From positions 27,998,740 to 28,062,739 of the forward strand of contig CAIIXF020000009.1 in the NCBI GenBank assembly GCA_903813345.2: DNA of 64,000 nucleotides, in the 5' to 3' direction. The DNA comes from Owenia fusiformis (Eukaryota; Annelida; Polychaeta; Sabellida; Oweniidae). The notes under the pieces were generated by a model that was given only the letters and a program-made list of their open reading frames with translations, had not been told where the DNA came from and did not search any database. This document shows, one piece after another, positions 45,301 through 64,000 of the stretch; position 1 is the stretch's first letter, and every line of letters starts with the position of its first letter. Both the position numbers and the translations under genes were made by a program.

Positions 45301-48300
45301 TCTCCAATAGGGTCCTGAATAATATCCCTGAATATAAATATGTATAATGCTTCCAGAATTTCTTTGGAAGTTTTCTAAAATTTTTGAAACATTTATTACC
45401 TGAACTGGTTCTAACATGAGTTTATTATGGGTCTTTTTAACTTATTTCCATATATTATTTTTCATAATATTATTTTACTTGTAGATATCAATGAATGCAA
45501 TGTGATGGCTGGTACATGTGGTATTCACACCTGTGTTAACACACCTGGTGCCTACAGGTGTGATTGTCTACCTGGATATAGGAACACTAATCCCACTGCA
45601 TGTGAAGGTAAGGAGAATATGATATGTATGGATTATCCTGTATGAGGTTCAGGATATTGGGATTATCTATTTATCAAATTGGAATTTGATTTTTGAATAT
45701 AGCTGTAATTCATGCATCTAGACCATTGCTTTTGTTACATTGACGTAAGTCGTCAAAGTAAAATACATTGGTAATATAACGAACTTTCGTCAATGTAACA
45801 AAAGCGAGTGGCTTAATATATGAATTGCAACTTCATTTACAAAACAAATTTCAAATCGAAAAAACTTATTAAAACTAGATTATATTTCCTAGCTTTATGC
45901 GAAATTATAAACTGCAACTTGAAGAAGGTTTAAATCGAAAAAACAAAAAACTCATCCAGGAATTTCATCCATTTTGTTACATTGACCTTCCGTCAAAGTA
46001 ACTAGTTGTGGAACAGTGATCCTGCCTGCTGATGAAATCTCTTTACGATGCTTAAAAAATTTGGCTGAAAACTGTAAGGATTAATACAATAACATAATTT
46101 TGTACTCTATTTTCCAGATATCAATGAATGTCAAGTTCAAAATGGTGGGTGTGACCAGGTTTGCAAGAATTTGATTGGAAGTTTTGAATGTTCATGTCAG
46201 GAGGGGTATGAGCTGTTCACTGGGGCATCACAAGGCCTCGTCACAACCAATGGACTCATTGTGGGCAAATCCTGTGTTGGTAAGTGATATGGGCAATTTT
46301 TATGTCACCACCACAAGTGGTGCCATATTGTTATAGACTCTAACTTTTTTCTGGACGGTGTTCGGTGGTCAATGGTTGGCATTTGGTGATTGGAGGTCAG
46401 TGTTCAGTGTTTGTAACAAATGGAAGGTTTTGCACGTTAATGCCCTGTTTATGATTTTTTGCTCTCAGAAAAATTAAGAAAACAACAATTAAGTATTTAC
46501 ATGTACATGTGTTTTATGTATTAATTGTATTATACATTATTATGTATATTGTAGTATTTTATATAGGAAATGGCAAGTCTTTTGTCTCCACTCCGTTGTA
46601 TGATGCTTAATATTTTTCGTGTCTGACATTATGCAATGTGTTTGTTTTAGCTGTTACATGTCCATTGTTGCCTCTACTCACAAATGGTCAAGTTTTCTAC
46701 AACAGCGCTCCAAATGACGATGGAATGTTTATTTTTGACACTAGAGCAAGGTTGGTATTGCAGGAGAAAATATAATGTTTAAAAGGGAAATAGAAATGAA
46801 TACGTAATGAATAATGTAAAAAAAATAAAATAGAAAAAATGTAAATATGCATGGAGAGAATACCTCTATGAAAGAAATGTAAAAATAGAAACATTCATCC
46901 AAAATGTTATGTAATTACATGTATGCAATGCAAACGAAACAGGTGTAGGGAATTTATAGAAATAAAATAATTTTGTATTTTTAAATTTTAGTTTCCTGTG
47001 CAACAGAGGTTTCACAGTAAATGGACCTAGCATGGCTGTATGTCGTAAAGATGGAACATGGACTAACTCTCTTCCAATGTGTGCAAGTAAGTATATAAAT
47101 GAATATTGTATTTTATTGTATTGTATTGATATATGTTATTGTACTGCATTGTGTTGTTTTGTCAGACATTGAGTTTTTTATTGTATTGTTTTAAATATAT
47201 AGATTTGTTTTAAACTTCTTCAATTTTTATTTCAGGAGCTGTGTGCCCAGCCCTTGGTGGAATTATGAATGGGCGGATCACTATTAGTGACAATCTTTAC
47301 TATGGCAGTGTCGCTACATACTCATGCGATTTAGGCTACAATTTGATTGGTACAAAAACAAGAGAATGTGATTGGTCAAATGAAGTTGTACTTGGACTGC
47401 AGTATGCTTGGAGCGGCTCTGAGCCTCGCTGTCAAAGTAAGTTTAATTTGGTCATGGTTAATGATTTTCAAGATAAGTTATTAACAATTTTTCCCAGTTA
47501 TTTGTCTCCACTGAGTGCAAACATCATTTACTGTAGATTAGACAGATTAAAGGAAAGTATGACAAATAAATTGGCAGCTCAATTTTCTTGTTGTCATCTC
47601 AAATTGTTTTTGTGATATTTTACTAGATGACAGGACACCAATACATTAATACTTTAAGGACAATCACAATGTTGTAAATTATCTCCAATTTTCAATCAGA
47701 AACCAAGAGAAATCCAGCAAAATTCCAACAAATTTTGACTCGCAGAATTCATTTGAAGAAATTATTATTTCAACTGCATAAATCTGAGATGAGTGATGTA
47801 CATGCTTTAGTTTCCCTCATTACTATCACAAATTACATTGTCATAGTGATTATTCTTAAAATAAACATGAAAAATAAGATAACTAATGCTTTGTGATTTT
47901 TGAGTCTTCACATTTATTGAATGCCTGCCATCTTTTGTCAGTTGCTGACTGTGGTGGAGTGCCACCTATTAGCAATGGAGCAGTCACGCAGACAGGAACA
48001 GTTTTCAACTCAACCATAACTTACAGATGTTACACTGGGTTTGAACTTGTTGGGGCGTCAGTGCGTACATGTGAAGCCAATGGCCAATGGTCAGACACTA
48101 GTCCTGTTTGTACTGGTAAGTGTAAAGTTGAACACCCCTTGAGTTAGAATTGACTATATTGAAAAAATTTGTTTGTGGGTATTTTAATATCCTCTGCTTT
48201 AAAGGGGGATCAATAACTCACACAATCTGATGAAAAATGATGTCTTTCTAGATCAAGCACAAAATTTTATACTCAACAATGAGGTCCAAAGAAACCACTT

Positions 48301-51300
48301 CAAAGAAAGATTTTGATTTATCATTTAAAGTGTAGTTTTATATGAATGAATTTTTACTTAAGGTATGAGGTGTCCTGACCCAGGTGCTCCTGTGTTTGGA
48401 TCTGTAGTAGGGGGCTCCAGGAATGGTTTTGAAGTTGGAGCTAGTGTACAGTTTCAGTGTGACAAGCCTGGCTATGAAATAACAAGTAAGTAGTGCCCCC
48501 CCCCTTAAATTAAGGGGACAGGTATATTAAGAAAGGTTGCGCGAAGAGAGGTCTATACCACAGGGATTCGGAGGGGTGGAGAAAAAACTTCAATACAATT
48601 CAATTTTTTATCAATGAGACAGTAGTTGCAGTAACTTAATTGCCTCAATTATACAGAAAAGGAAGAAAGCACTGAATGTTTTGGGATAGCATGAATTGAG
48701 AAAAAACAAATACATATAATTAAGTGGAAATCAAATTAATTGTTTAAAGTGCCTGATAAACTATAAAATGCGCATGCGTCCAGGTGTTGATAAACTATAA
48801 ATAGCGAAACCCCAGGGTTTGTCATCACAAGGTAAGCCAGGACGTGTTGAGCGAACATCTAGTGTTGATATTGAATTTACATGTAGCCAGATAAGTTTCC
48901 TTATTGAAATTACATATAGTTATTAGCAATACTTTGTAGGTGAAAATTAATAAAATATGAGTATATATGAGAGAAATTGGCCATTTCGAACCTGTTGAAA
49001 GTTTGTGGCTCTCGGCTACACCGGGGAATTTACTTCCATGAGTACAGACACAAATGTGGGGCTCCCCAAGAGGTACGCGAGAATGTGACCTGGCATCAAA
49101 TGTACGACTAAATGCTTCTATCGAGTAGATAAAAGAACGAATACGACAATAAGTTATTGCAAACGACAATTCCGAGCATTCATCTCACTGAAGTATTTTG
49201 AAGTGAAGAAAATATGATTTTTGTTTTGAAACATGGATTCAGATGAACGTAACTTCATTCTGACAACTAATCAAAACTGAACAAGATTGATTATACGTAA
49301 CAGACGATTTATTGTTTTTGTTTTACAATGTTTTGATCGGCTAAACGAATGAAACCAAGAAATTATGACATGTAAAATGGCAATTTTGAAATGTAAAATT
49401 TAAAAGTGACAAACACAACCTCCCTATCCACTCTTTATGAGCCCTAATATGTACATGCAGCAGTGGTAGTGTACAGCTTATTATCACACTACTGGGCTTT
49501 GTATTCTAAAGCTTGTTGTTTTTAATAACACTGTTCACTCGACGTAAATGTTTTGTGTGTGCGCAGTCAACGATAATCATTGTTTTATCCCGGTTATATG
49601 ACCTCGGCAATTATAACAAAACCGTACTAAACGAAAAAACGCAAATAAGAGAAGGCTTTCACACACATATAGAAAATGAACTAGTCTAATCCGCCAGTAT
49701 AAACTCTGTTATATACGTAGCCAGGTCGGGCGCACACTTTAAGCGATTTTTTTTATTTATTAATTAAAATCATATGTACATAATAGTGATAAAGACACCC
49801 CAGGGGGTGTATGGCATATCACAATTTTAGATTAATAAAACCTTTGACCCTAGGTAAAGATTTTTGGGGCTTTACTTAGGGTCAATGGTTTTATTAATCT
49901 GAAATTGAACTGTGATTTTAATCAGAAACGTTTTGTGTTTTCAGACCCGAACCCAATATTCTGTGTTGTCGATGAGAAAGAATCAGGTAATTATGACAGT
50001 TTAAAATATACACATGTAAATAGATAAAAAATGAATAAAAACTATGATATTAAAAATCAACTTAATAATAATTATTGAAGTATCATAATAAAATTATGCC
50101 GCTTAATGAGATGTAAAGGAGTTTTCCTTCGTATGTGAATTGATAAAGATATATTACTAAGAACAGATAAAGAGTACACCCTTTGATATAATAATAGTAG
50201 AAGTTATGAGTGAAACAAATGTTTCTATACAAAGTTTTTTATTTTATTTTTATTTTATTAAAGTGAACATAGTGTGTAATATCGAGCCCTTACTGGGGTT
50301 ATTAGAAATGTGAAACATTTAATTGTGAATCTATATGTATGATTGTTAATATATATGTATCTATATGTATCTTTCCTATATTAAAAATACAGTTCAAATA
50401 GTTTGCAAATTTTTTAAATAATATTCTTGGTTTTAAATGATTCACTATGTGTTGCTAAAAATGAAAGGATGTAATAAGGTTCCAATTTAAGATAAGGTTA
50501 TTAATGATCCATACAGTCTATTGAAATATATAAATGTACCTGTTCTGAATTTTGAAACATTATAATTGTGAATCTTTAGCTAAATCTTGTAGAAGTTCTA
50601 AAACTTGATCTAAAACTTGATTAACAAAAACATGCATTTACTGTTTTATCACCTAATCGCCAGGAAGTTGTGACATGTATTAAGACAATATGACATATTT
50701 GATAAATGTGCTACTTTTTTGCATGGGCTTTCAAGAAAAACTCTATTTGAAGTTAGATTTACATAATAAGTCATTGGTAAACAGGTTAAAATGCTATTGT
50801 ACTTATGGATATAGGGCATGCAGAGAGTTCAACCATATCAACTTCCCATGTTCCTATGACTTCATCATCAATCAAAACACCACATACTACCAACACACCG
50901 ACAACCACAACATCGACCACCACACCAACGACCACCACACTGACAACCAACACACGGACGACCACCACACCGACAACCACCACGCTGACGACCAACACGC
51001 CGATGACCACCACACTGACAACCACACCAACTACCACCACACCGACTACCACCACACCGACTACCACAACGCCGACAACCACCAAGCCAACCACACCAGT
51101 AACCACCACACCGTCAACCACCACACCGACTACTACCACATCGACAACCACCACACCGACTACCACCACACCGACAACCACCACACCGTCAACCACCACA
51201 CCGACTACTACCACATCGACAACCACCACACCGACTACCACAATGCCGACAACCACCAAGCCAACCACACCAGTAACCAACACACCGTCAACCACCACAC

Positions 51301-54300
51301 CGACTACTACCACATCGACAACCACCACACCGACTACCACAATGCCGACAACCACCACACTGACAACCACCACACCAACTACCACCACACAGACAACCAC
51401 CACACAGACAACCACCCCACCGACAACCACCACACCAACAACCACCACACCAACTACCACCACACCGACTACCACCACACCGACAACCACCACACCGACT
51501 ACTACCACATCGACAACCACCACACCGACTACCACCACACCGACAACCACCACACTGACTACCACCACGCCAACAACCACCACACCGACTACCACCACAC
51601 CTAGATCTACAACAGTTGATGTGGGCCAGCCAGAGCCAGGTAAAGAAAGGAATGTACCATGTACATCGTCCAATGTCCATGTCTTTCAATGTGGTGCAAG
51701 TAAATATTGAGCAGGGAAGCATAAATTGATTGTACATTTACTAAATCTAATAAAGGTGTGTTCGTATTGTACTAAGGACGTCGACAATTGTGGAACTGAC
51801 GGAGGAAATGATTTTAAGATTTTACTAATACATGTAAAATACCTTCATATTTGTTATTTAGGTTGTGCATCAAGGAGTTCTAAATGTGCATATATAATTA
51901 TATAATATTCATATATCTAACTTACATGTATGTCTGAGGATGTCTGCATGTATTGTTGTATTTATTGTATGTCTATATAATACAAATATGTCAAACCCAT
52001 ATTAATATGTTCTTGGTGTTAGCACCCATAAAAAAGGCCCATTTTCACCTGTGTTCTTTAGAAGCTTAAGAATCAGGTATAACAGCACAATAAATCATGA
52101 TTCAATAAATCCCTTAACTTTGGTCAATGCATGTTTTAACGAAGCTTTGGGCTCATATTCACCTTGGTGTTTTGTTTTCATATTAATGGTGCATTTGTGT
52201 CAACACGTATCTAACCTTTATGTGACAATGGGTTTAACACGTTGATCATTTATGATTAGGGATTATAGTTTCTTATATGAGATATACCATTACTTTGATA
52301 AATTTTCAATTTTTATGTATTCCTATTCTTATTGACTAAAATTGCCGCTAATGTTTTTAAAACAAACAATTGCTTGTATATTATTGTTAACTAAAGGAAT
52401 AAATTGATGTACATGTATACAAAAAAGAAAAGTACAGTAAAATCACTACCAGATCTATATGTGATTGTAAGCTGAGAAGTTTTATAATGTAAGCTCACAT
52501 ACATTATATTTGTTCCATCTTGGAAAGAGTCAAAAATGAATTGTTCTTAGATACAAACATACAATAAAATCTGAATAATTAAATTTTTTATAGCATTTTT
52601 TACTCTGCAAAAATTAGGATGCCTAATGACTTTCGCTTTTGACCGCTTTTGACCTTGGCTTAAAAGGTAAAGACATTAAACAGAGATCTGAGGGACTTCA
52701 AGACTAACCCATTCTCACTATCCCATTGGAAAGCCACTAGAGCACTATTATGAAGGTTAATACTAATTTCATGTTGTTATTTCCAGATTGTGGCCTTGGT
52801 TTATCAGTGGTGGCAATAGGTGGCAGGTATGCTACCCAGAGTGCACCACCAGACAATGCCTTATGCAAGACCTACTACAGTCTACAGGTGGTATCTCTCC
52901 TACAAGCTATCAAACCTGCCCTTGATAGCTTTGTTTGTACAAGCCCTAATGTTGAACTGGATGTGGACAGTGGAGCTGATATTTACTATGAAGGAAATGT
53001 TGTAAGTAAAGTTAAACAGATAATAAAATATGTTTTCTGTCAATCTCATGGCGTAATTTTTTGGCTCATTCATTTCCCTCGCTTCAAAAACTCTAAATAT
53101 AATTCCATGTCAAAGAATTGATCATCATATAGCTGCATTGGTACAGTTCATCGCACGTACACCTTCTACCCACCTAAGGAAGGGTTGCATACCTGGTTCA
53201 TCCTTTCAGTGAAGATCATACCCAATATACAATAATGTTACCAATATAACCATTATGGATAACCATTATGGATTTACTACAGAAGAATCACAGAATCCTT
53301 ACAGTAACAAACTTTATTGCATTTAACCAGATTGTTGCGACAGCCAGGATTCGTGTTTCTGCTGCCACAAGTGCTGCCACCTACGAAGATATTCAGGACT
53401 GTGGAAGTGCGCTCCTTGTGACGCTCACTGATCCCTCGTACCTTGCTATGTTCCCAGATCTCCTCCAGATAGAGGCCAGTGGGACTTGTATAGGTAAGCA
53501 TTGATTTAAAACCAGCGCGAACTTGAGAATCTAAGGACCTTTAAAATGTTGAAGAATATTTATTTATTTTGTCACCATTCGCTCCTACATACAATTGAAC
53601 ATTCCTAAATTAAACTGCATGACATAAAAATTCTTTGTTAGATTGAAATTTAAGTTTTAAACTTATAATATATGTGTGTAATAATAATATATCTTTTGGA
53701 CAGTCTATATCTATTATTAAGTTTTATTTTATATTTCAAAACATGATAAAGTTTCACACATGATGCATGTCACTATATATTACAATAAACAACCAAAGCT
53801 ATATATATGAGGAGTGATCATAAAATTCCTATTAATCCAGCAAAAAGCATTTAACCATAGTAACCAAAAGTTGAGGGACCAAGGGCAAATAAAAAACTTC
53901 TGGCAATGACATTCATATTTAAATAGTACTATATAATCAAGTTATTAGACACATTTAAATGTTATAACTTCTACCTTATATTATTAATTATAATGTATAA
54001 ATTGTATGAAGTTTCATCTTTTGCTTGCAGGAGGTGTCCTGAACCCCCAGCAATTGACCAATGATGGACGTATATACACCTGCCCTGAAGACTATACCCT
54101 AGGACCAGATAACCGCTGTTGTCGTAAGTTTGTATTTGGCTCCAAAGCATATGATTGACCCACATGGGCACACATGTCATTGTAAATTTGAACTAATGTA
54201 ATATACCATTTTTTTCTGAAAAATGCACACATCCCATAATTTGGGTATTCAGAGTAATACCATGTATCCTGCTATAATACCACTTTTTCAACAAAACGCT

Positions 54301-57300
54301 CACAACCCATAATTTGTGTATCCTGAATAATACCACTTTTTCAACAAAATTCGCACATCCCATAATTTGAGTATTCAGAAAAGTACCACTTTTTCAGCAT
54401 AATGTCCACATCCGATGATTGGTGTATTCTGATTTGAATACCAGTTTTTTAACAAAATGTGCACATTCCATAATTTAAGTATTCAGAAAAGCACCATTAT
54501 TTTAGCAAAATGCTGTCATCCCTTATTTTTTTTATTTTGAGTGTTAAGAAGTGTTCCAATAATAGACCTTTCCAAATTCTATTAAACCCTGCCTTTTGGC
54601 ACATCAAGGAAGCTATGATCCATTTGGCTATATTGATGATGTAATTGATAAGTTTATCCTATTTTTGCACGAACAAATTGCTACCTACAACCAATGACAT
54701 CATCAATATGGCCAACACATCATAGTTGATTTTCAAAAGGTTACAGGGTTTATTGGAAACGGATATTCCTTTTGTCCTATCCAAAAAGACAAGCACTTAA
54801 CATTAACAATCATTTTTAAAGGACAAGTTTATTAAGTATAAGTGTTGTATTTAAATACATGAAACTGTACACATGTAAGAATAGGATTAGCGTTTCTTAC
54901 AATTATTTTACACTTTTTTTATCATTTGTAACACTTTTTGTATGTGAAGTTTTCAATATGTGTGTTTATAAACCATTTGTAACAATTGTATTACTTAATT
55001 TATGATTTCCAGCCCTATTTACCACTACAAAACAACCATGTCCCACTCTTCCCCCAACCACACCAGCCCCCACAACCCCAGTACCCACAACCCCAAGACC
55101 AACCACTCCAAGGCCAACAACTCCAAGACCTAAAACCCCAAAGCCAACAACCTCAAGACCTAAAACCCCAAGGCCAACAACTTCAAGACCTAAAACCCCA
55201 AGGCCAACAACCTCTAGACCTAAAACCCCAAGGCCAACAACCCAAAGACCTAAAACCCCAAGACCAACAACCTCTAGACCTAAAACCCCAAGGCCAACAA
55301 CCTCTAGACCTAAAACCCCAAGACCAACAACCCCAAGACCAACAACTCTAAGACCTACAACCCCAAGGCCAACTCGAAGACCCACTACAACACGTAATCT
55401 ATTTAATTATTACCTTATGGAAGCCTAGATGTGAATATAGTAAGCCTACATGTGGCTTGCCTTGAGCTTAGTATTGTACACTAATACTTCCATAAATCAT
55501 TTATACTGGATGTTTATATTTCTGACATGCCATTACTTGTATACTTTAGGCATGAATACTTTTTTCTCAGCTATGAAATACTCTATGACATTTATACTCT
55601 ATTAAAGCCATGCTGCTGTACTCAAAGACATTATTACAGTATACAATTATATAAAACTCAATACTCTACTCTTAGACACGTGTATTGTACTTTAAGCCAT
55701 AAATACACTATTTTTACATATATTTACTGCACTCAATGAATTAATACTTTACACTTACATATGCACATTGTACTCAAAGACATTGATACTCTACCTCCAC
55801 ATGTGTATGATGTACAGAAAGACATTGTTTATTTATATTAAGCTCAATACTCTACTCTTAGACATGTTTATTGTACTTTATGGCATTAAAACTCTACCTC
55901 CACATGTGTATGATGTACAGAAAGACATTGTTCATTTATATTAAACTCAATACTCTACTCTTAGACATGTTTATTATACTTTATGGCATTAAAACTCTAC
56001 CTCCACATGTGTATGATGTACAGAAAGACATTGTTCATTTATATTAAACTCAATACTCTACTCTTAGACATGTTTATTGTACTTTATGGCATTAAAACTC
56101 TACATTTACACATGTATAATGTATTTGAAGACATTATTGCACATGTATATTTAATTCAATACTCTACTCTTAGTCATGTATATTGTGTACTATTCTCTCG
56201 GACATAAATATTTGCACATGTATACTATTCTCAGACATTAATACCCATTTACACACATAAACTGTAAAAATAAATACATTGATACTGAGCATTTACACAT
56301 GTATACTGTACTTCAATACATTTGTACATGTACTCTACATTTACACACATTATACTGTACTTAAAGACATTGATACTTTACATTTACACAGACATACTGT
56401 CCAGGCCTGTTGCCATTGGGGATTAGGGGTTTCGAGCAATCTTTCAAAATAATGCAGTTTTCACCATTCTGAGCACCTTCAAGTGATTTTTGGGCTTAAG
56501 TTGTCAAAAGTGAACCCCCCTTGGCAAATCCTGGCTACAGGCTTGAATGTACCACTTTGTATCTCCATTTTATTCTTCCCCTGAGTGCACATAGCTAACT
56601 TACATGCATGTTTATCCCTCAACTAATATTTCAGTAAACTCTCTCATATCCTACCCTGTTTGTAGAGTTAAATTAGCAGACGAAGCACTCTTTTAAGGAG
56701 CCAAGTTAAAAAATGCAAGTGGTACTCATTACCGCTTCCATAGCAGTAATTCAGCTTCTTTGATGGCATGGTGGTCAATCCTTTACCTGCAAACACATAA
56801 GAGAGACAGTCAGAAAATATGTTGAAGTTGTCATTCTGTCTCACATTGATAGAAATATTGAATTGGACTCGTCAATAGGACTCGATATCTAATGTACTAA
56901 ATTGGTTGACATGATGCCAGTAAAGATTCAATACAAAAGCTATTTAGTTAATCTAAATGGCAGTTTATATTTGATATATCTATCATATATGGCTCATAAC
57001 ATTCATCATCTAATTTGTTCACAATGGTAAACTCAAGATCACCATGATATTTTCCAATCTGTCTCCTTGACAACCTAAGGCCTGTTTCTTAACTACATTC
57101 CTGAACACATATGTAAAGTAAAATTGTGAAAATCAAGAGTTCCAATTTTGGGATTCTCGATTTTCAAATGGCCCAGTCCTCTGTTTTTCTATGTTGTGTT
57201 CTAATTCTTCTCTAGCATCATTCGCTACTACGGTTGCTCCTATATCTACAACAACTGAAGAGGGTTCTGGTGGCTCCGGGGGTTCTGGAGGTTAGAATCT

Positions 57301-60300
57301 CAGAAAATGTCATGGTGGTCATATTTTCTTTTGAGAAATACAATATTTTAGAGAGGAATTAGCAAGGAATGGAATAAATGGGTATGGAGTATATATTCAA
57401 AATTGTATGGAAATTCAAAACATTGGACATTTTTTCATGTTTTGGTGAAAAAGGAGTGAAAAAAGTATGACCGCCATGAATTATTTTCATATTTCATAAT
57501 GATTCTTCATAATTCCTCATAATTTCCTTTAACAAATAATGTATGAATTTTCTTTAAAATTCTCTGGAAAGTCTATGCTTTGTGTTGTATCCTTATTTGT
57601 GGCTTAGTTGTGTTTGTTGTGTGTTTCTGTTCCTTATATGGATAAGTCCATTATATTATAGAACTCATAAAATTAAAAATAGTTTAATATAGAAATAATG
57701 TTTTCTAAATGGTAGGTCCCCAAAATTATTAAAAATGTATTGTTCATTCTTTGATGTCAAAGTTTACATTCTGACAGAATTCCAAAATTGAATTTTTTTT
57801 ATAGCATCTGGGTCTGGTGAAGAAGTAACCAGTTGTTATACATGTACCAATGCTGCCACTAACGATCAATGCAACTCGGGTGGCGTGCAGGTGTGCGACG
57901 AAGGGGTAAGATGACATTTCATTCTTGTAGACATTATTTGGACATTCTATCAAAAATTAATAAACACAGTAGATAAAGTCAAATTGTTGTCTCTATCAAT
58001 GCCAATGTCACAAAGTTGTCATGGCTACCATTGTGTCATATTTTATTTGGTATTACATGAAACAGTATCACAACAGATGACTTATTTCATATGATTTGTT
58101 GGAATGCAACCAAACATTACTAGGGGTACCACGATACGAGAAATTGAATATCGATACGTATCTACGATACTGACCTCACGATACGATATGAACGATACAA
58201 TACAATGATACAGTGTAAATTGAAGTAAAACTGAACTTTATTCTAATTTTTCAAACTTGTAAAGCCGAAAATACTTCAAAGAAGGGACTTCCGGTCAAAA
58301 AACGATACGACTGATATTCATTTTATGTATCGATACAGCTCGTATCGGAGGTGAATTGCTCGAGCGCTCGCGGTACCGTCATTACATCACCTTGTGTATA
58401 TACTATTCTTGTACTGTATCTGTATTTTCAGCTTTATTCATTCATCAGTTTCACATTTTGCTAGATTTAGATTGCATATCTTACCCATTGTTTAGAAGAT
58501 GAATTTCAGTGTGGATTTGCTTGATATTTAGGAGATGTGCTCTATGGAAGTGAATGATCCTGGACACATATATAGCTATTCCCAAATTACTAAGCAGTGC
58601 ATGAGAGAGGATCTTTGTCTGGGATTTGAATCACAGAATGATATCTGGTGCAGGTTCTATGGTATCTGTATAGGGTGTTGCCATGGAGAGTATTGTAATG
58701 GTGATGTTCCAGATTTTTATGACTTCTACCCTGGTACGACCAAATGGATATTCTAGATTACATGTCACCAAGAGGTCTTGACAAAGAATCAAATTATATT
58801 TTGATTGAGCTCTCACAGAACACATAAAGCACAAAATGAAGGGATAAACATTACCATTTGTGCAAAAATAGTCTGACATAAAATATTTTGATTTTGCAAG
58901 ATCTCCATATTATTGTTGTCTGTCACCCAGTGTGTCACCTGATATTTTATATATTTTATGTATTGCAGTTGACCATTTTTTTTGTTTAATTACGCACATC
59001 TAAGAAGTGTTTATGTTTGTTCTTACATTGCAGCACACAATATTCTACTAATATGGTGAATTTAATCAATTTTAGGCAAATACCCCAGTTGTTCTAATAC
59101 TGCACAGTTTTATCTTTGATTTAATCAACCATCCCTTTTATCAAAATAACCCAGCCTAATATGGCTAAAAAGACTCTAGGTTATTTTTCCATCCATGGGG
59201 TGATTATACTATACTGTCTCCCCTTCAGAGTATATGTGAGACAAGAGTGATCTTTGAGTTTGAAGAGATTGTACCCCCTACAGCTGCACCTACAACAGCT
59301 CCTAAATCCAAGAGTAAATCTGCAAAATCATCAAAGGCATCTAAGGCGTCATCAAAATCATCTAAGGCATCAAAGGCATCTAAGGCATCATCAAAGGCAT
59401 CAAAGGCATCTAAGGCATCATCAAAGGCATCAAAGGCATCATCAAAGGCATCATCTAAGGCATCATCAAAGGCATCATCTAAGGCATCTAAGGCATCAAA
59501 GGCAACATCAAAGGTGTCAAAGGCATCAAAGTCTTCAAAGTCGAAGGGCAAGAGAAGAAGAAGAAGATCGAAATCAAAGGGATCATCCAAAGAGACATCC
59601 AAAGGAACATCTAAGGGAAAATCTGCAAAATCATCTGGTGTTGTTGATCCAACACCTACTTATAAAAGGACAACCATTATTAAGAAGAGATGCAAGAGAG
59701 AGAATGCGTGCAACACGGCAATGTTGAATAACCCAACCCAATGTAACCCATTGTCCCCATCCCCTGTCTGTGTGTCATGCTGTACGGGACGAAGGTGTAA
59801 TTTCGCCTTACCATCCAACCTGCCGTATCCAGGTATACATACTCGGAATCTGCCTGGAGATTGTTTCTTAATGTAACTCTGCTTGCTCTCCTACTCCATC
59901 TACCTCCTTGGAGTTTCTTTTAGAGGCCTTTATTTAGATACATTACATTGGATATTTCTACAGCAGAGGTGAATTATAATGGCTCTCTTGAAAAGCCAAT
60001 AGAAACCCTAGTTTGGCATTGATCTATTTTAAAAGTAACTATGATAGTTTTTCACCATATGAGCCCACTGAATGACGCCATTCCCATCCTACTGTATTTC
60101 AGATTCATCTAGCTTGATATTCTCAACTAATTAACTCCTAATATAGCAACCATTTGACTAACAATAGTTACTCATACTTTTAGATGAATGCTTGATTATG
60201 TCTTAAGCCATCCTCACATATGAACGAAAACCCCCGAAAGAATGTTAACATTCCCGATGACCAGATTTGACAATTTACCCAATTTGCAACGCTGCGTTTT

Positions 60301-63149
60301 GTGGATTCGTTCATATGTGAGAAGGCCTTTATATTTTTACTAATAATTATTTCTTATCCTTCAGTAGCAGATCATTGTCTTTGACTGTCGGCTGTCTTTG
60401 CTAGAACCTTTTTGACTAATCTTTGTCTGTTTTACCATTAATCATCTACTAGCCGCTGTGAAGCTTGTATTTATACCCTCTAATATAATGCCTTACTAAC
60501 ACTCTACTTCTAGTTTGCCTGCTTGACTGAACTCCGAACGACTAGAAATGGCGCAAAGATTTCTAAAAAATGTCAAACTGAATTTGAATGTTCCGGTCTT
60601 CGTGAGAAAAATGCAAATTTGTGTTTTGCTCAGAATGCAACTAACTCACCTGTGTGTTCGTCTTGTTGTGTTGGGATTGGATGTAATATAGGAGTACCCA
60701 CTGCCTTACCTTACTCAGGTGACTGTCTTGATTGAGTAAACCTGTCTAAAGTGAAATACAGTAAAACCTGTCTAAAGTGAAATACAGTAAAACCTGTCTA
60801 AAATGAAATACAGTAAAACCTGTCTAAAGTGAAATACACTAAAACCTGTCTAAAATGAAATACAGTAAAACCCGTCTAATATTATATACAGTTAAACCTG
60901 TCTAAAGGGAAATCTGTCTAGAATTGATAGAGTAAACTCTGTTGAAAATGAAATTCAGTAAAACCTGTCTAAAGTGAAATACAGTAAAACCTGTCTTAAG
61001 TGAAATACAGTAAAACCTGTCTAAAGTGAAATACAGTAAAACCTGTCTTAAGTGAAATACAGTAAAACCTGTCTAAAGTGAAATACAGTAAAACCTGTCT
61101 AAAGTGAAATACAGTAAAACCCGTCTAATATTATATACAGTTAAACCTGTCTAAAGGGAAATCTTTCTAGAATTGATAGAGTAAACTCTGTTGAAAATGA
61201 AATTCAGTAAAATCTGTCTAAAATGAAATATAGTAAAACCTTTCTAAATCGGTAGACAGTAAACTTGTCTTAAATAGAAAAACTTAAGCACAAAACACAT
61301 GTAAAATAAAAATAGAGCTTAAATGAACTTTAGAGTAAATTGGACTTCAATGATTTTGGACTGAACCTATGTCATATTTCCATTTTCTTTAAACACACAA
61401 GTACACATATAACAAGTTTTACTGTAAGCCGCTTATATAAGAATAAGCCAACAGCATTAGAATGTACATCTTTGGGAATACATTACTTTGCTGTTCTTTT
61501 ATTCTATTAAAAAAGCTTGTTGTGTTTTCGAAATTCTCTTCTTTCTGCACTGTTTTGCTTCTCAATTCCTCATCTTGAAAACTTATGCAATGAGCTGTAA
61601 TTGTGTGCTAAAATTGTAGTATCTGTGGAAAATTGTCGCCTTTATGTAAAATTGTAGTTTCTATGTAAAATTGTGGTTTCTGTGTTTCTCTAATTCACAT
61701 TATTGCTTCAGTAATCAACAATTATTTTGCCGAGAAAACTAATTTATTACACTAAATAGTGCAATTGTTGTAATATAAATTTAATGTGAACTTCTCATAT
61801 GTGATTCATATTTCGACATAATTAAATAATTTTTTACAAAAACTACCCTTTACTGTACTAGACTATCCTAAAATCCTTCTCAAAATATTTCCAGTGAATC
61901 GCAAGAAGAGGGCTGCTACATCCATATATGATCATTGGAATAACGAGGAGTTTATAGTTGCTGATGATAAACCAGCCTACTGGAATGGCACTGTACCAAC
62001 ATGTAATGGTGAGTTTAAAGCTACACTTTTTCTCAATTACAGACACATAATTGGTAAACCTGTTGAAATGAATCATGTAATAATACAAAAATCTATATTT
62101 TCTGCATGCAACATTTTCTAGCATTTTCAACATTTCAACATTTTTCTTAAATTATACCTAGATGAATTATTTCCATGATTTTATTAAGTTACTTGAACAT
62201 TGCAGATGTTGAGCCCCCTGTATTCACACATTGCCCCAAGGAACTGAACGCGACCCTGACCTTGAATGGACCCCTGCCAGTAGACTTTGTAGTCCCCACA
62301 GCAACTGATAATTCGGGGATAACACCTACTATTACATCAATCCCTGCTGGGATTCAACCACCTTATGTTTTTGAGCAGGTAACCATTTTTAGATTTGTGT
62401 ATAAATTCATTAATAGTTAAAGGATTATGAAATTGATGGAAAAGTCAGATGATGAAAGTTGGAGATTAAGACTAAGAAATGATGTCAGAATATGAAATGA
62501 TGAATTATATATTCTATTACAGGATGGCTATGTTGTATATGTGGCTACAGACAGTGCTGGAAACCAAGCTAACTGTACAATCAAGATAAACCATCTAGGT
62601 ACATGTGCTGTTTGACATTAATCCAACAAGTTGAAGCAGCAATAAAAACTAGACCAAAGATTTGAGATTTACTAGTGAAAATATTGTCACAATATCAGGA
62701 TAAAACCTTTATTTTTAAGCTTATTGAACTAAATTTTTATCAATTATAAAAAATGAAACATATTTGATATTTCTGCATCTGATATCCTTAGTAACGTCCA
62801 CAGTTGACCATTTATCACATTTGGGACCAAGAAAAGTGTTTACTTTGAGAGATTAGAGAGGTGTTTGAATATACAGGTTTCACTCTATTATTTTATGTAA
62901 TAGATGGTATCCCACCCAGAGTACAGTGTCCTCAAGAGAAAGTTGTTGATCTCCACAACACTACAAGCTTCGTTGTTCCCGCCCGTTTCCCCGATGTAAT
63001 TGCTACAGACAATGTAGGTGTAGTGAGGGTTGTGTATGACCCTCCTAATGGCACCATCGTCCAAATGAGACGTTACTTGACTGTTACCGTTACTGCTTAT
63101 GATGAGGCTGGAAACCAAGGAGCATGCAGTTTTAACTATGAAGCCATTC
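21334..63149 (+). CDS. Giant CTLD-LDLa-CUB-sushi-EGF-mucin-LU-HYR protein gene (runs off right edge)
   Basis: Thirty-three constitutive exons and one of three alternative exons make about 2,050 residues up to 63149. Approximate residues: signal peptide 1-21; C-type-lectin-like 22-210; LDLa 211-247; CUB 250-359, 363-475, 476-587; sushi 588-822 (four); EGF 823-917 (two); sushi 918-1107 (three) and an incomplete one to 1162; Thr/Pro mucin 1163-1437; unrecognised Cys domain 1438-1594; TTPRP mucin 1595-1721; Gly/Ser linker; LU 1747-1847; linker; HYR 1886-1968 and 1969-2050. Splice phases agree at every junction. Nearly all module boundaries are phase 1, as is usual for shuffled extracellular domains, while CUB modules are split internally at phase 0. 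The domain order suggests a secreted or surface adhesion/recognition protein; no membrane segment was reached. I do not recognise an orthologue with this exact order. The 3' end lies outside the window. Confidence 0.88.
24463..24590. repeat. Short inverted repeat in intron 1
   Basis: GGCTCCCAGAATGCAACAT near 24470 pairs with ATGTTGCATTCTGGGAGTC near 24555, with a loop of about 60 bp that includes GCCATTTTGAAA. Possibly a small non-autonomous transposon; no target duplication was identified. Confidence 0.6.
24843..25447. mobile_element. Foldback element with TACCCCCATAAA ends
   Basis: TACCCCCATAAA at 24843 is mirrored by TTTATGGGGGTA ending at 25447. A second inverted pair lies inside: TATGGAAAGGGGGTTTTG near 24936 against CCCTTTCCATAG near 25419. 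The left portion (AAAACCTCAAAATAACCTCA) is similar to the compact inverted repeat at 34620-34745, so they share a family. The middle contains many CACGTTTCACG motifs and is non-coding. Confidence 0.65.
25811..28634 (+). CDS. Exons 2-6: C-type-lectin-like domain and LDLa
   Basis: Exons 25811-25886, 26705-26786, 27341-27489, 27957-28061 and 28368-28634. The lectin-like fold is shown by [50 protein letters not shown] and [11 protein letters not shown], with conserved Cys and Trp positions. The usual EPN/QPD-plus-WND calcium/sugar motifs are only partly present (a GQPDL is seen, WND is not), so sugar binding is uncertain. The last exon also encodes an LDL-receptor class A repeat: [30 protein letters not shown], with its acidic calcium cage intact. 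Extracellular ligand binding is inferred. Confidence 0.85.
29225..29890 (+). CDS. Exons 7-8: CUB domain 1
   Basis: Exons 29225-29355 and 29686-29890, joined in phase 0. CUB hallmarks: [19 protein letters not shown], then [19 protein letters not shown], then [12 protein letters not shown] and [16 protein letters not shown]. In CUB domains this fold binds protein or glycan ligands, often using calcium; the Glu/Asp pattern looks compatible, but I did not verify each ligand residue. Confidence 0.9.
31875..32320. repeat. 20-bp minisatellite (CAATCTACGCTGATGTACCC)
   Basis: CTACGCTGATGTACCCCAAT-type units recur about 22 times with period near 20 bp and scattered changes. The array ends about 150 bp upstream of the nested zinc-finger ATG. 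Confidence 0.9.
32472..34112 (+). CDS. Intronless C2H2 zinc-finger protein, 18 fingers plus one degenerate
   Basis: Start chosen at the ATG at 32472 ([10 protein letters not shown]); the open frame extends upstream to 32451 only through a non-ATG codon. About 546 residues, one exon, stop at 34112. Eighteen fingers follow the CX2C-X12-HX3-4H plan with TGEK-type linkers; examples are [19 protein letters not shown] and [19 protein letters not shown]. The second unit ([15 protein letters not shown]) has lost its first Cys pair. There is no KRAB, BTB or other N-terminal domain. A DNA-binding nuclear factor is the expected role; targets cannot be read. It is nested in intron 8 of the large gene on the same strand. 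The lack of introns and an A-tract after an AATAAA downstream raise the possibility of a retrocopy. Confidence 0.9.
   Translation: MSNAGKIAKLNKQHNCEVCFKTFPCISTLELHFHVHDGAQVRLHKCKDPQGKGNLVMHAEVHTGKKKFKCDFCSKTFAHKSSLRSHIRNHTKDSPYKCDICLRVFTSKYSLGKHNQVHSGERPFKCDYCSKSFIRNSHLKEHIIIHTRPSEKDFKCGQCNKAFISKYRLDIHVKNHSLKKQFECQVCLKMFAHMSTLNLHSKIHTGEKSFKCNVCFKTFTQKSHLLEHSKVHSEVYDFKCDICSKQFKHKASLTTHILLHTGGKPYKCDICPSAFAQKGNLLIHMKIHRAQKDFNCHMCSRSFSHKTTLDGHIRSRHTGETPYKCDICSKAYAHKESLKSHSLVHTGEKNYKCDTCSKAFAHKSKLKRHVKIHTGEKQFKCGDCSKEFSCKGDLVRHIKMHTGEKDFKCETCSKGFIRKSDFDLHILSHTGEYKFECDLCSKTFLRKNSFKRHRGIHNIDGENQFKCEFCSKQFAYKGIYLMHRQTHTEEKDFKCDICSKGFIRKGDLELHKLGHSGGYKYKCDVCSKTFLYKGNFKRHCKIHEGE
34324..34349 (+). terminator. 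Candidate poly(A) signal and A-tract after the nested zinc-finger gene
   Basis: AATAAA occurs at about 34325 and again at about 34339, the latter followed at once by a run of A. It lies about 210 bp after the stop codon. It could be the normal 3' end, or the fossil tail of a retroposed transcript. Confidence 0.5.
34345..34565. repeat. 16-bp minisatellite (GAATGAAGCATGCATT)
   Basis: Units alternate between TGAATGAAGCATGCAT and TGAATGTAGCATGCAT for about 13 copies. GCATGC makes each unit partly palindromic. A single related unit lies upstream at 34194-34215 in the 3' flank of the zinc-finger gene and may be the seed. Antisense open frames here (34286-34549) are repeat artefacts. Confidence 0.92.
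34620..34745. mobile_element. Compact inverted-repeat (MITE-like) hairpin
   Basis: TACCCCCATAAATGTGGGGT at the left is the exact inverse of ACCCCACATTTATGGGGGTA at the right, and pairing continues through TTATTTTGAGG / CCTCAAAATAA. The loop is about 50 bp. The outer flanks also carry CTAGGAT and CTAGGAT. It shares its ends with the element at 24843-25447. Confidence 0.8.
37290..37450. repeat. Dispersed repeat, copy 1
   Basis: GATAACAAATTCTTATGTCTAGA followed by ATATTTCCCATCGCC, AAGCTATTTAGATTTTTGACCTCGC and CACCCTACCCAAATGTAC matches, with about 20-25% differences by eye, the stretch at 44226-44335 in the same orientation. The family is not recognised. It sits directly before the CUB 2 exon. 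Confidence 0.6.
37477..38223 (+). CDS. Exons 9-10: CUB domain 2
   Basis: Exons 37477-37625 and 38025-38223, joined in phase 0. [20 protein letters not shown], then [13 protein letters not shown], then [20 protein letters not shown] and [21 protein letters not shown]. All four CUB strands with the Cys pair of the first half are visible. The exon split lies at the same place as in CUB 1 and CUB 3, so the three arose by duplication of a two-exon unit. Confidence 0.9.
38683..39564 (+). CDS. Exons 11-12: CUB domain 3 (divergent)
   Basis: Exons 38683-38858 and 39405-39564, phase 0 inside. [53 protein letters not shown] and [20 protein letters not shown]. It follows the CUB plan but lacks the usual CGG start and the DGD-type loop, so calcium binding is less likely than for CUB 2. 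Confidence 0.85.
40056..40772 (+). CDS. Exons 13-14: sushi (CCP) domains 1 and 2
   Basis: 40056-40244 and 40602-40772, each a complete phase 1-1 module. Sushi 1: [38 protein letters not shown]. Sushi 2: [42 protein letters not shown]. Four Cys and the conserved Trp are present in each. Sushi modules act as extracellular protein-binding units. Confidence 0.92.
40948..42034. mobile_element. Non-autonomous mariner-like element, TA-flanked
   Basis: Left end ACAAGGGTCGTTCGAAAAGT (40947) and right end ACTTTTTGAACAACCCTTGT (ending about 42035) are inverted copies, flanked by TA. A subterminal inverted pair, CATGGTACATATGACGTCAT near 41128 and ATATGTACCATAGCGTCATC near 41846, extends the repeat. Ends of the form ACAAGGGT..GTTC are known from Tc1/mariner elements. 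No transposase reading frame remains. It lies in the intron between sushi 2 and sushi 3. Confidence 0.8.
42663..42836 (+). CDS. Exon 15: sushi domain 3
   Basis: Phase 1-1 module: [48 protein letters not shown]. All four Cys and the Trp are present. It ends before GTAAGT. The intron behind it is 2.3 kb and carries a dispersed repeat copy and a small MITE. Confidence 0.92.
44226..44335. repeat. Dispersed repeat, copy 2
   Basis: GATAACAAATTCTCATGTCAAGA, ATATCTCCCATTCC, AAGCTATCAAGATTTTCGAGCTC and CACCCAGTCAAGGTGAC align with the copy at 37306-37420. A few words (GCTCACATCTTT.AGTGTT) just downstream also occur at 43149-43170, so a third partial copy may exist there. Confidence 0.6.
44852..45055. 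mobile_element. Small MITE with CAGTGATCTCC ends
   Basis: CAGTGATCTCCACAG at the left is mirrored by CTGGGGAGATCACTG at the right. The interior repeats CAGGTGGGTGCAA and ends with GTGGGTGCTGCGCCCAC, a local palindrome. It stops 43 bp before the sushi 4 exon, so it sits in the zone where the branch point and polypyrimidine tract should lie. Confidence 0.75.
45099..45269 (+). CDS. Exon 16: sushi domain 4
   Basis: Phase 1-1 module: [50 protein letters not shown]. Complete four-Cys pattern. Confidence 0.92.
45485..46279 (+). CDS. Exons 17-18: two calcium-binding-type EGF domains
   Basis: Exons 45485-45607 and 46118-46279. Both start DINEC, the calcium-binding EGF signature, with six Cys each. 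EGF 1: [19 protein letters not shown], then [14 protein letters not shown] 2: [18 protein letters not shown], then [12 protein letters not shown] with a longer last loop before KSCV. The Asn and aromatic residues for calcium ligation and beta-hydroxylation are largely kept. The tandem cbEGF pair should form a rigid calcium-dependent rod. Confidence 0.93.
45728..45805. repeat. Inverted repeat between the EGF exons
   Basis: GCTTTTGTTACATTGACG at 45728 pairs with CGTCAATGTAACAAAAGC ending at 45805, an 18-bp perfect inverted repeat. A third, direct copy (TTTTGTTACATTGACCTTCC) is at about 45974. Probably the remains of a small transposon. Confidence 0.75.
46651..47436 (+). CDS. Exons 19-21: sushi domains 5 (split) and 6
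   Basis: Sushi 5 is split in phase 2 between 46651-46750 and 46992-47086: [47 protein letters not shown]. It is the only internally split complete sushi here. Sushi 6 is 47236-47436: [33 protein letters not shown], a slightly long insert, then WSGSEPRCQ. Both have all four Cys. Confidence 0.88.
47942..48115 (+). CDS. Exon 22: sushi domain 7
   Basis: Phase 1-1 module: [34 protein letters not shown], then [16 protein letters not shown] textbook sushi repeat. Confidence 0.93.
48363..49986 (+). CDS. Exons 23-24: incomplete sushi domain 8
   Basis: Exon 48363-48485 gives the first half of a sushi domain ([27 protein letters not shown]). The only in-phase continuation found is a 42-nt exon, 49945-49986 ([14 protein letters not shown]), which supplies a third Cys but not the Trp or fourth Cys. 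Either the module is genuinely degenerate or an exon was missed in the 1.46-kb intron. The small exon is less certain than its neighbours. Confidence 0.6.
49815..49917. repeat. Inverted repeat hairpin in intron 23
   Basis: ACAATTTTAGATTAATAAAA and CCTTTGACCCTAGGTAAAG pair with CTTTACTTAGGGTCAATGG and TTTTATTAATCTGAAATTG. The stem is about 45 bp with few mismatches and the loop about 12 bp. It lies just upstream of the 42-nt exon. Confidence 0.75.
50815..51639 (+). CDS. Exon 25: Thr/Pro-rich mucin segment (275 residues)
   Basis: A single phase 1-1 exon of 825 nt. After a short start ([16 protein letters not shown]) it is almost entirely TTTPTTTT-type repeats, a likely site of dense O-glycosylation and an extended stalk between folded modules. 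At DNA level it is a CCACACCGACTACCA-type minisatellite with longer duplicated blocks (about 51097-51180 and 51181-51300). Two other frames are open by periodicity (a His/Thr/Asp frame and an antisense Val/Gly frame), but only the Thr frame splices in phase at both ends. Confidence 0.85.
51640..52786 (+). other. Intron 25
   Basis: AT-rich, no gene or clear repeat seen. Confidence 0.5.
52787..54123 (+). CDS. Exons 26-28: unrecognised Cys-containing extracellular domain
   Basis: Exons 52787-53001, 53331-53493 and 54031-54123, about 157 residues, entering and leaving in phase 1 like other modules. Cys positions: [41 protein letters not shown]. It has predicted strand/helix alternation ([33 protein letters not shown]). 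The end, [21 protein letters not shown], reads as a short Cys-rich cap. I do not recognise the family. It sits between two mucin stalks, so it would be displayed as an isolated folded unit. Confidence 0.8.
54190..54530. repeat. About 58-bp tandem repeat in intron 28
   Basis: CACTTTTTCAACAAAATGC..CACATCCCATAATTTGGGTATTCAGA-type units recur about six times with degeneration between 54210 and 54520. Non-coding. Confidence 0.75.
55013..55393 (+). CDS. Exon 29: TTPRP mucin/stalk segment
   Basis: A 381-nt phase 1-1 exon of TTPRP and TSRPKTPRP repeats (127 residues), Thr, Pro, Arg and Lys rich, after a short [14 protein letters not shown] start with one Cys. Unlike the exon-25 mucin it is strongly basic. 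The DNA unit is about 30 bp (AAAACCCCAAGGCCAACAAC) and the antisense frame is open by periodicity only. Confidence 0.85.
55500..56400. repeat. 103-bp tandem repeat within a looser repeat field (intron 29)
   Basis: CCTCCACATGTGTATGATGTACAG recurs at 55794, 55897 and 56000, so three near-identical 103-bp units. Related shorter motifs (ACTCTACTCTTAGACATG, ATTGTACTTTA) continue on both sides from 55560 to 56390. Non-coding. Confidence 0.85.
56400..57215 (+). other. Rest of intron 29
   Basis: No gene, RNA or repeat recognised. Confidence 0.5.
57216..57905 (+). CDS. Exons 30-31: Gly/Ser linker and N-terminal half of the LU (three-finger) domain
   Basis: Exon 57216-57290 encodes a Thr/Ser then Gly-rich linker ([12 protein letters not shown]). 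Exon 57805-57905 continues [13 protein letters not shown], then [21 protein letters not shown] is the start of a Ly6/uPAR domain. The exon enters in phase 1 and, unusually for this gene, leaves in phase 0, which fixes the three downstream exons as interchangeable partners. Confidence 0.85.
58121..58380. mobile_element. Possible hAT-like fragment (GGGGTACCACGATACG)
   Basis: TAGGGGTACCACGATACGAG with many ATCGATACGTATC-type words, and GCGGTACCG near 58370 as a weak inverse of the left end. It resembles widespread elements with CACGATACGATAC ends, but the inverted repeat is poor. It sits just upstream of alternative exon A. Confidence 0.4.
58532..58733 (+). CDS. Alternative exon A: C-terminal half of LU domain
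   Basis: 202 nt, phase 0 in and phase 1 out. [42 protein letters not shown], ending FYDFYPG. With exon 57805-57905 it completes the LU plan, including the diagnostic CC...CN end. It is acidic overall. Exons B and C are its paralogues: each begins two residues before the first Cys and ends YPG or YSG. It cannot be spliced to exon B or C in frame. Confidence 0.85.
59229..59832 (+). CDS. Alternative exon B: LU half with Ser/Ala/Lys repeat insertion
   Basis: 604 nt, phase 0 in and phase 1 out. It starts [13 protein letters not shown], then TAAPTTAP and a run of [13 protein letters not shown]-type repeats and [13 protein letters not shown] (over 100 residues), then [12 protein letters not shown] and [16 protein letters not shown] with LPYPG. 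The Cys frame matches exons A and C, so the repeat is an insertion in the loop between the first and second Cys of this half. It is extremely basic. The DNA repeat unit is AAGGCATCATCT/AAGGCATCA. The antisense Asp/Ala frame is a shadow. If the 5' splice site at 59833 is not used, the frame stops after GDCFLM. Confidence 0.82.
60514..60718 (+). CDS. Alternative exon C: C-terminal half of LU domain
   Basis: 205 nt, phase 0 in and phase 1 out. [53 protein letters not shown], ending LPYSG. It has the same Cys pattern as exons A and B with a short loop, and one NAT glycosylation site. Its 5' splice site (GTGACT) is weaker than most here; read through, the frame ends after GDCLD, so it might also serve as a terminal exon. 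Confidence 0.82.
60737..61270. repeat. 26-bp minisatellite with 240-bp higher-order duplication
   Basis: CCTGTCTAAAGTGAAATACAGTAAAA (26 bp) recurs about 18 times. A variant block starting CCCGTCTAATATTATATACAG occurs at about 60870 and again at about 61110, 240 bp apart, with the same following changes (TAGAATTGATAGAGTAAACT), so a whole segment was duplicated. It lies directly after alternative exon C. Confidence 0.9.
61271..61894 (+). other. Intron before the shared downstream exon
   Basis: AT-rich; three near-copies of TATGTAAAATTGTAGTTTC at about 61635-61685. No exon or RNA gene seen. Confidence 0.5.
61895..62008 (+). CDS. Shared exon after the LU alternatives
   Basis: 114 nt, phase 1 in and phase 1 out, 38 residues: [19 protein letters not shown] then [17 protein letters not shown] contains RKKR, a possible furin-type cleavage site, directly after the LU domain, so the protein could be processed there. 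The function of the rest is not recognised. Confidence 0.75.
62206..62598 (+). CDS. HYR domain 1 (two exons)
   Basis: Exons 62206-62378 and 62523-62598, joined in phase 0. [53 protein letters not shown]. The FTHCP start, the AxDNSG motif and the YxATDxAGNxAxC end are the HYR (hyalin repeat) hallmarks. It is an immunoglobulin-like adhesion module. Confidence 0.92.
62904..63149 (+). CDS. HYR domain 2 (one exon)
   Basis: 246 nt, phase 1-1: [58 protein letters not shown] complete HYR repeat in a single exon, unlike HYR 1. It ends before GTATGT, so the gene continues past the window. Confidence 0.92.
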
Positions 63150-64000
63150 GTATGTATCTCAATGCTTTAAATTGGCAGTATTAGAAAATCAAGTTTAATA
63201 GTACATAAGAGGTTTTAATAAATAGCTAAAGGATAAGCCATTGTTAATAAGTGAGTTGATGTAGTATGCAGCTAAAACCCAGTTGTAGTTGAGTGTTAAG
63301 GTAAATTATGCCATTTTATTTTTATAATTATCAATAATTTGTATTACTGAAATTGTTAATAAGATATTTGCATATATGAAATCAAATTAGATGGCAATAA
63401 TATTTACCCAAATTAATTTCAACTTTTTGTGACAGTGCAGAACTACCTTAAGATTTTCGTACAGGGCAATAAGTGATTTCAATTAAAATTATTAGCTCAG
63501 CATTTATATACTTCCATTTCACAAATGGCAAAACAGGTTCATTAAAAGCAATGATGAGTCTCACATGACACCACTTAACAAGGGGTTATATATTTAAGGT
63601 CAATACTTGAATTATTGTTCAAACCACTGAACCAACTTATCTACATTAGCCTTAGCTAACATTCGAGAATTCAACTGTCCATTGACGGCTGATGATTTGT
63701 TTGCAATTTTTATGGCCAAATCATTTATTTAAGTATTCATATCTAAATGAGTTTCCATAAAATAGATACCCATCAGGTGATAGTTGAATTCAGTTTAATG
63801 AATGCTTGCTTTAAGGCTTTTATTAAACTGTGTTCGGATTGGTCAAAAGTGACAATGCATGCCTATCTGTATGTGTGATATCTAAACAGTGCATGGACTT
63901 TTGTTTCCCGATTGATTTCTCTCTTCGGTTTCTTTTGCATGATGGCTGTATTTCAGCGATTTCTGGATTATTAAACTGATTTTAGGGATTCTTAAGATGA
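63150..64000 (+). other. Start of the next intron
   Basis: AT-rich with no exon seen up to the window end. The next module of the large gene should lie to the right. Confidence 0.55.

Follow-up and report, generated by a model that had tools for sequence, protein, structure and literature searches.

Three candidate mutually exclusive exons for fingers II and III of a LYPD6-like Ly6/uPAR domain in a large mosaic gene of Owenia fusiformis

The window analysed here is a stretch of 64,000 nucleotides of the Owenia fusiformis genome (C9:27998740-28062739; 498-Mb assembly of 525 contigs). Towards its 3' end the forward strand carries a constant exon (U), three tandem exons (A, B and C) that probably replace one another in the mRNA, and a second constant exon (D), all placed among the exons of a large mosaic gene. 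The features referred to throughout are the following.

37470 to 48144, forward strand: upstream CUB, sushi and EGF exons; six frames were scanned and all six match CUB, sushi or EGF over the cut-off
57216 to 57290, forward strand: constant linker exon, Gly/Ser/Thr-rich, 75 nt, phase 1 to 1, placed by eye
57805 to 57905, forward strand: exon U, constant, 101 nt, phase 1 in and 0 out, finger I with cysteines 1-4
58532 to 58733, forward strand: exon A, 202 nt, phase 0 in and 1 out, fingers II and III, eight cysteines
59229 to 59832, forward strand: exon B, 604 nt, phase 0 in and 1 out, fingers II and III, eight cysteines
59316 to 59540, forward strand: minisatellite-like coding repeat within exon B, six overlapping rows with periods of 9 to 39 nt
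60514 to 60718, forward strand: exon C, 205 nt, phase 0 in and 1 out, fingers II and III, eight cysteines
61895 to 62008, forward strand: exon D, constant, downstream, 114 nt, phase 1 to 1
62207 to 63151, forward strand: downstream HYR-domain exons (PF02494) in the same reading, borders by eye

GT-AG borders flank U, A, B, C and D, and the coordinates that a sequence-only reading of the window had assigned to these five exons proved correct to the base. Its lengths for A, B and C, each leaving a remainder of 1 on division by three, were likewise recovered, as were the phases of 0 at the end of U and 1 at the start of D. The 3' border of the linker exon reads GGAG/gttaga by eye and generates an in-frame junction with U (G+CA, an Ala codon). 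Introns of 495 nt and 681 nt separate A from B and B from C, respectively. The latter holds a MITE-like element (window 60205-60329) whose 24-nt arms are 88% complementary and lie 77 nt apart, while a tandem repeat of about 26 nt (window 60738-61248), organised in a 249-nt higher-order unit, fills much of the intron connecting C and D.

Downstream of exon D the PF02494 model matches the frame 62849-63181 over its cut-off (E 1.4e-8) and the frame 62166-62417 below it (E 0.0041). Beyond the 3' end of the window lie ephrin-receptor-like repeats, EGF repeats, a weak laminin-G/pentaxin match and another HYR domain. A hydrophobic stretch of 29 residues (L007, 9542 onward), with a best 19-residue Kyte-Doolittle mean of 2.9, is a probable transmembrane segment, and the polar, initially basic frame that follows could be its tail. 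A Pfam match at E 0.05 or better was obtained for 14 of the 20 frames scanned and none for the remaining six. Strand, domain content and phase where it was checked (linker exon to U, and D to the first HYR exon) suggest that the CUB/sushi/EGF, Ly6/uPAR (LU) and HYR exons belong to one gene. The giant receptor-like protein proposed earlier gains support as the predicted product of a large mosaic gene with a probable transmembrane segment. The combination in one stretch of sushi, HYR, ephrin-receptor-like and EGF domains with a weak laminin-G/pentaxin match is SVEP1/polydom-like, these domains constituting the SVEP1 set. In contrast, the CUB domains, the LU domain and the probable transmembrane segment distinguish the mosaic gene from SVEP1/polydom, which carries a von Willebrand A domain near its N-terminus.

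The six match-free frames are located at window 52741-53118 and 53250-53501, at L001 207-500, 1009-1392 and 1509-1805, and at L002 6878-7276; some have cysteine-rich ends that look alike by eye and perhaps represent a repeated undescribed module. Two long open frames of low complexity, rich in Thr and Pro (window 50790-51707 and 55006-55425), share their strand with the mosaic gene and are likely exons of variable length. Upstream of the gene, window 32445-34109 is an open frame with many C2H2-like zinc-finger repeats, recognised by eye, and beyond its 3' end L009 4036-7605 contains a retroelement, DIRS-like by eye, with reverse-transcriptase-like and tyrosine-recombinase-like frames.

The domain formed by U together with A, B or C resembles LYPD6. 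PF16975, the LYPD6-type Ly6/uPAR model, is the top match for both U-A-D (20.5 bits, E 0.00056) and U-C-D (29.7 bits, E 7.8e-7), C being the best LYPD6 match of the three exons; for U-B-D it scores 18.3 bits (E 0.0028), with a CDC27 match within the low-complexity insert ranking just above (E 0.0026). PF00021 reaches 12.7 bits for U-A-D (E 0.18) and is absent from the matches listed for B and C, and the three-finger model PF00087 matches weakly (E 0.0037 for A and 0.67 for C). Because none of U-A-D, U-B-D and U-C-D attains the curated whole-protein cut-offs of 31.5 bits (PF16975) and 24.8 bits (PF00021), the domain is termed LYPD6-like, with no certified PF16975 or PF00021 membership. When U-C-D was searched against the PDB, the only three matches at E <= 10 were LYPD6B/LYPD6 chains, namely 6zso (LYPD6B, E 2e-5), 6ib6 (E 4e-4) and 6gbi (E 8.8e-4), and exon U aligned to the N-terminal half of LYPD6/LYPD6B. 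For the three-finger fold itself, the exon C half alone was modelled, from the three-row alignment of A, B and C, with low confidence (mean pLDDT 62.6, pTM 0.44), and a Foldseek search of this model against the PDB gave no match at E <= 0.001.

In the cysteine mapping adopted here, which is our own, U contributes cysteines 1-4, and A, B and C each contribute cysteines 5-10 together with a further pair located in loop 3. In the LU fold, finger II extends from Cys 5 to Cys 6 and is followed by finger III. Since A, B and C hold Cys 5 onward, the swapped part would comprise fingers II and III, and the earlier view that the exons encode half of a Ly6/uPAR three-finger domain, with two of three fingers exchanged, is borne out by cysteines 5-10 in each exon and by the PF16975 matches. 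The locus displays the ten cysteines that are the rule for LU domains, ending in CC..CN, as well as the typical two-exon architecture flanked by phase-1 introns, located here before U and after A, B or C (rule and architecture as given in the accessible part of PMC6600238). In contrast to the LU archetype, whose dividing intron lies at the tip of loop 2, the intron here falls between Cys 4 and Cys 5, and according to the same excerpt few LU domains sit inside proteins of other kinds (PMC6600238). The extra cysteine pair of A, B and C fits the extra loop-3 disulfide described for Lypd6; Lypd6 is a GPI-anchored LU protein, whereas here the LU domain is part of a mosaic and has three second halves (PMC6600238, in part). 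Lrp6, named in PMC6600238, and nicotinic receptors are among the partners of LYPD6.

The paralogy of A, B and C, previously put forward from their cysteine pattern and ends, extends beyond chance. With the 129-residue low-complexity insert of B removed, BLOSUM62 local scores are 71 for A-B, 67 for A-C and 107 for B-C against best shuffles of 40, 48 and 56, and in no pair did any of 1000 shuffles reach the real score. The three-row alignment displays eight cysteines in the same order, a common CC..CN end and a Tyr near the donor, and the protein similarity extends to the donor itself (LPYP/G, LPYS/G and FYP/G). At the DNA level homology has faded. When exons with 100-nt flanks were used as blastn queries, the only match at homologous positions among the best three per pair was one of 30 nt between A and B (E 0.13); two matches with lower E-values, both A-C, are non-homologous (E 0.006, on opposite strands; E 0.067, an 11-nt word at unrelated positions). 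These comparisons indicate that the paralogy of A, B and C is old, its trace in the DNA being almost gone. In a tree of nine second halves they fall together with two C5 exons (90/86) on very long branches, and none of the six inner branches reaches the starred support level.

At such divergence the eight cysteines would not be expected to persist without selection, because neutral runs rarely keep all of them: in a simulation started from C (20,000 runs of a one-lineage toy model, distinct from a dN/dS test) with per-site differences of 20, 30 and 40%, all eight survived in 0.885%, 0.075% and 0% of runs, and an open frame persisted in 16, 9 and 6%. This bears on the possibility that the gene uses a single one of the three exons, C or A being the best candidates, and that the remaining two are old duplicates with little or no inclusion in the mRNA. 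The repeat expansion of B and the splice sites of A, the weakest of the three, would suit such a history, but all three exons keep open frames, phases, GT-AG borders and eight cysteines despite near-erased DNA similarity, and it is judged rather improbable. A single assembly stands behind the locus, and the wrong joining of copies from different loci or haplotypes could in principle imitate an array. When exons C, A, U and D and the tail of B were searched against the genome, however, each was found in one identical copy, here, the other matches being one another or distant paralogues; the introns are moreover dissimilar, which leaves an artefact of this type exceedingly improbable.

The reading frame admits a single copy only. 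Out of eight splice paths tested, three are open, U-A-D, U-B-D and U-C-D, which agrees with the earlier statement that exactly one of A, B or C restores the frame, and the other five (U-D, U-A-B-D, U-A-C-D, U-B-C-D and U-A-B-C-D) contain stops. In the four multi-inclusion paths the stop precedes the D junction by 190 to 800 nt, and skipping produces a stop at the U/D junction itself; where A is joined to B the sequence reads TAT ATG TGA, as originally noted. Nonsense-mediated decay follows a rule of 50-55 nt from the stop to a downstream junction, and because further junctions follow D, all five closed paths should be decay targets. The arrangement therefore combines tandem homologous exons with a frame that is compatible with single inclusion only, features by which mutually exclusive clusters are recognised. 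Length likeness within the cluster is evident between A (202 nt) and C (205 nt), in contrast to B, which reaches 604 nt because its finger II holds the 129-residue insert. Full tandem LU domains assembled from overlooked first halves between A and B or B and C were also considered and rejected: none of 13 phase-compatible candidate exons (AG...GT, 20-400 nt, right phases, GT donors only; eight in intron A-B and five in intron B-C) carries the CxxC of a first half.

The exon ends also bear on whether one or more of A, B and C might act as an alternative last exon and give rise to a short soluble form ending after the LU domain. Past the donor, the frame of each exon stays open for no more than about 5 to 14 codons, the frames ending at 58753, 59873 and 60732, and an AATAAA is present at 61305, about 0.6 kb after C. 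Nevertheless, neither AATAAA nor ATTAAA is listed for introns A-B and B-C in a scan of 57905-62010, and the conserved ends stop at the donors, in the sole phase that D accepts; alternative termination is accordingly given only a slim chance.

Exon anatomy, phases, paralogy and the frame rule together make alternative splicing at A, B and C likely. In the interpretation that we consider probable, the exon that encodes fingers II and III in a LYPD6-like LU domain was duplicated in tandem to give A, B and C, within the gene for a large mosaic protein probably located at the cell surface. Every productive mRNA would include one of the three copies between U and D, and the otherwise constant protein would carry the LU domain in one of three forms. 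All three exons would be used and their choice would be regulated, and the swap would alter the ligand-binding fingers, with B adding a long basic finger-II loop that bears furin-type motifs.

How a single inclusion might be enforced was approached from the introns. Competing intronic RNA pairings, with a docking site and selectors as in Dscam, operate in a number of genes with exclusive exons (as far as the consulted part of PMC6071210 describes them) and could impose a strict choice. The competing stems to which the sequence-only reading had pointed were not borne out: pairing of the U-A or C-D intron windows with the A-B and B-C introns was not beyond chance, 22 of 40 and 29 of 40 dinucleotide shuffles being at least as strong, in a test on a single genome that has no comparative power and that weak or conserved pairings could escape. 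Among the 25 longest of 44 inverted pairs, many of which originate from the C-D tandem repeat and the longest of which is the MITE-like element of intron B-C, no selector-like set linking the introns was seen by eye. Similarly, blastn between introns gave, in the best three matches per pair, none longer than 37 nt or with E below 0.097. A pairing device is judged very unlikely at this locus. Blocking between close splice sites requires a very short intervening intron, and by the limits usual for such blocking the 495- and 681-nt introns are too long. AG-free zones of 20, 47 and 48 nt precede A, B and C, with no sign of distant branch points, and a U12-like donor string has no match in 57906-61894, where borders are GT-AG throughout.

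Since docking/selector signals, short introns and U2/U12 devices were not found, frame surveillance combined with a trans-acting choice provides the simplest account, and reading frame plus nonsense-mediated decay with such a choice is the likeliest form of enforcement on the features of the locus. Skip and double-inclusion mRNAs would be removed by decay, which would render the choice effectively exclusive without an RNA-structure device. The donor of exon A is the weakest of the three (U1 duplex -4.1; B -7.2, C -8.1), and the pyrimidine fraction is likewise lowest for A (0.55; B 0.77, C 0.73), so that B or C might be the default in the absence of regulators.

Other LU loci of the genome place the array in context. 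A genome-wide PF16975 profile search gave seven weak matches, three of which are exons A, B and C, with none of the seven over the cut-off, and PF00021 gave no matches, nor did its controls, which makes the latter search uninformative. A separate LYPD6-like gene at C7:18267088-18269109 has, by eye, a phase-1 intron at about the same place. In each of three comparator loci, C7:13577345, C5:37374334/37375262 and C5:29951672/29951229, a phase-0 intron separates a first-half exon from one second-half exon, and the phase-1 exit of the second half was seen for C7:13577345. Within the 20, 19 and 17 kb examined around C7:13577345, C5:37374334 and C5:29951672, respectively, all three comparators have a single second half, versus three at the present locus. 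A profile of six second halves was run against the six frames of the comparator loci and of an extended 114-kb C9 stretch; it recovered its six input exons at E below 1e-22 and no other strong match, the next being L027 (E 0.0075), which by eye represents a different LU domain within the same C5 gene, followed by L028 (C7:3599594, E 0.011); no fourth strong second-half copy was detected in the C9 stretch. Further weak matches are located at C7:16903515, C7:3599594, C3:24092990 and C5:6061945; the genome searches used can miss matches, and other arrays may exist.

These loci modify one element of the sequence-only reading, which had taken duplicated neighbouring exons of asymmetric length as the signature of exclusive splicing. 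The tandem, paralogous and asymmetric nature of the exons is supported, but the dividing phase-0 intron is no adaptation to exclusivity, as it is present in three other loci for which one second half was seen. As judged from these gene structures, other LU genes share the phase-0 dividing intron, and the distinctive trait of the present locus is the multiplication of the second half alone.

Two of the C5 regions have further features. The minus strand of C5:29943000-29959999 (L026, L027) holds what by eye is a mosaic gene: two LU domains are accompanied by a thrombospondin-1-like stretch, by Lys/Ser/Gly-rich repeats similar to the tract in exon B, and by an RKKR soon after the second LU domain, like that of exon D. 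In C5:37368000-37386999 (L024, L025) an LU domain is followed on the same strand by C-type-lectin-like exons, again by eye.

The insert of exon B occupies finger II and is Ser/Lys/Ala-rich, its 129 residues including 44 Ser and 39 Lys or Arg against 2 Asp or Glu. Its repeat structure indicates that it derives from a coding minisatellite. RRRR motifs occur within the insert and RCKR after it, and exon D presents a furin-type RKKR motif directly after the LU domain; furin-type cleavage at these putative motifs is a guess. The insert could mark a decaying copy as well as a function. A more speculative proposal, which we hold to be on balance unlikely, is that the head of the protein is switchable by splicing between the compact A and C versions and a B version with a 129-residue basic finger-II arm and furin-type motifs. 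Such a switch would let the protein alternate between different ways of engaging ligands, for example through fingers that bind proteins or through an arm that binds polyanions or matrix and can be clipped by proteases, and it might be tissue-specific or immune-induced. Were it true, this would be, to our knowledge, the first half-domain exon array for the LU fold.

The principle of such an array is already known, while its LU half-domain and mosaic setting are new to us. Tandem exon duplication is common, affecting about 10% of animal genes in a 2002 study cited in the available text of PMC9013439. The closest parallels are arrays 4 and 6 of arthropod Dscam, which are likewise tandem paralogous exons used one per mRNA, each encoding half of an extracellular domain (half of Ig2 or Ig3) in an otherwise constant protein (PMC3236188, as partly available). 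In contrast to the present locus, Dscam involves Ig rather than LU domains and many more than three exons, its exclusivity is established where ours is inferred, and no signal like its docking/selector pairing was found here. Similarly, the thioester proteins BgTEP2 of Biomphalaria, CfTEP of Chlamys and TEP2 of Drosophila are large and secreted and have one segment swapped by alternative exons; BgTEP2 has 12 exclusive exons of varied length with conserved residues at the C-terminal side (both as related in the accessible section of PMC7016707). The thioester proteins differ in that a bait or variable region is swapped and no LU domain is involved. The likeness to both systems would be one of working only, and descent from Dscam or thioester-protein arrays is not claimed. 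No description of exclusive LU half-exons was found in the titles and abstract openings among the matches listed, where subscription literature is thinly covered.

The LU fold has been described as diversifying by gene duplication (PMC6600238, in the part available). If transcripts confirm the proposed splicing, it would join the Ig fold and the variable regions of thioester proteins as a substrate of exon swapping, and the constant part of the protein would serve as a built-in control. Because the usual physical devices were not found, the locus would also offer a clean case for the question of whether exon choice can be exclusive with nothing but frame and decay to enforce it.
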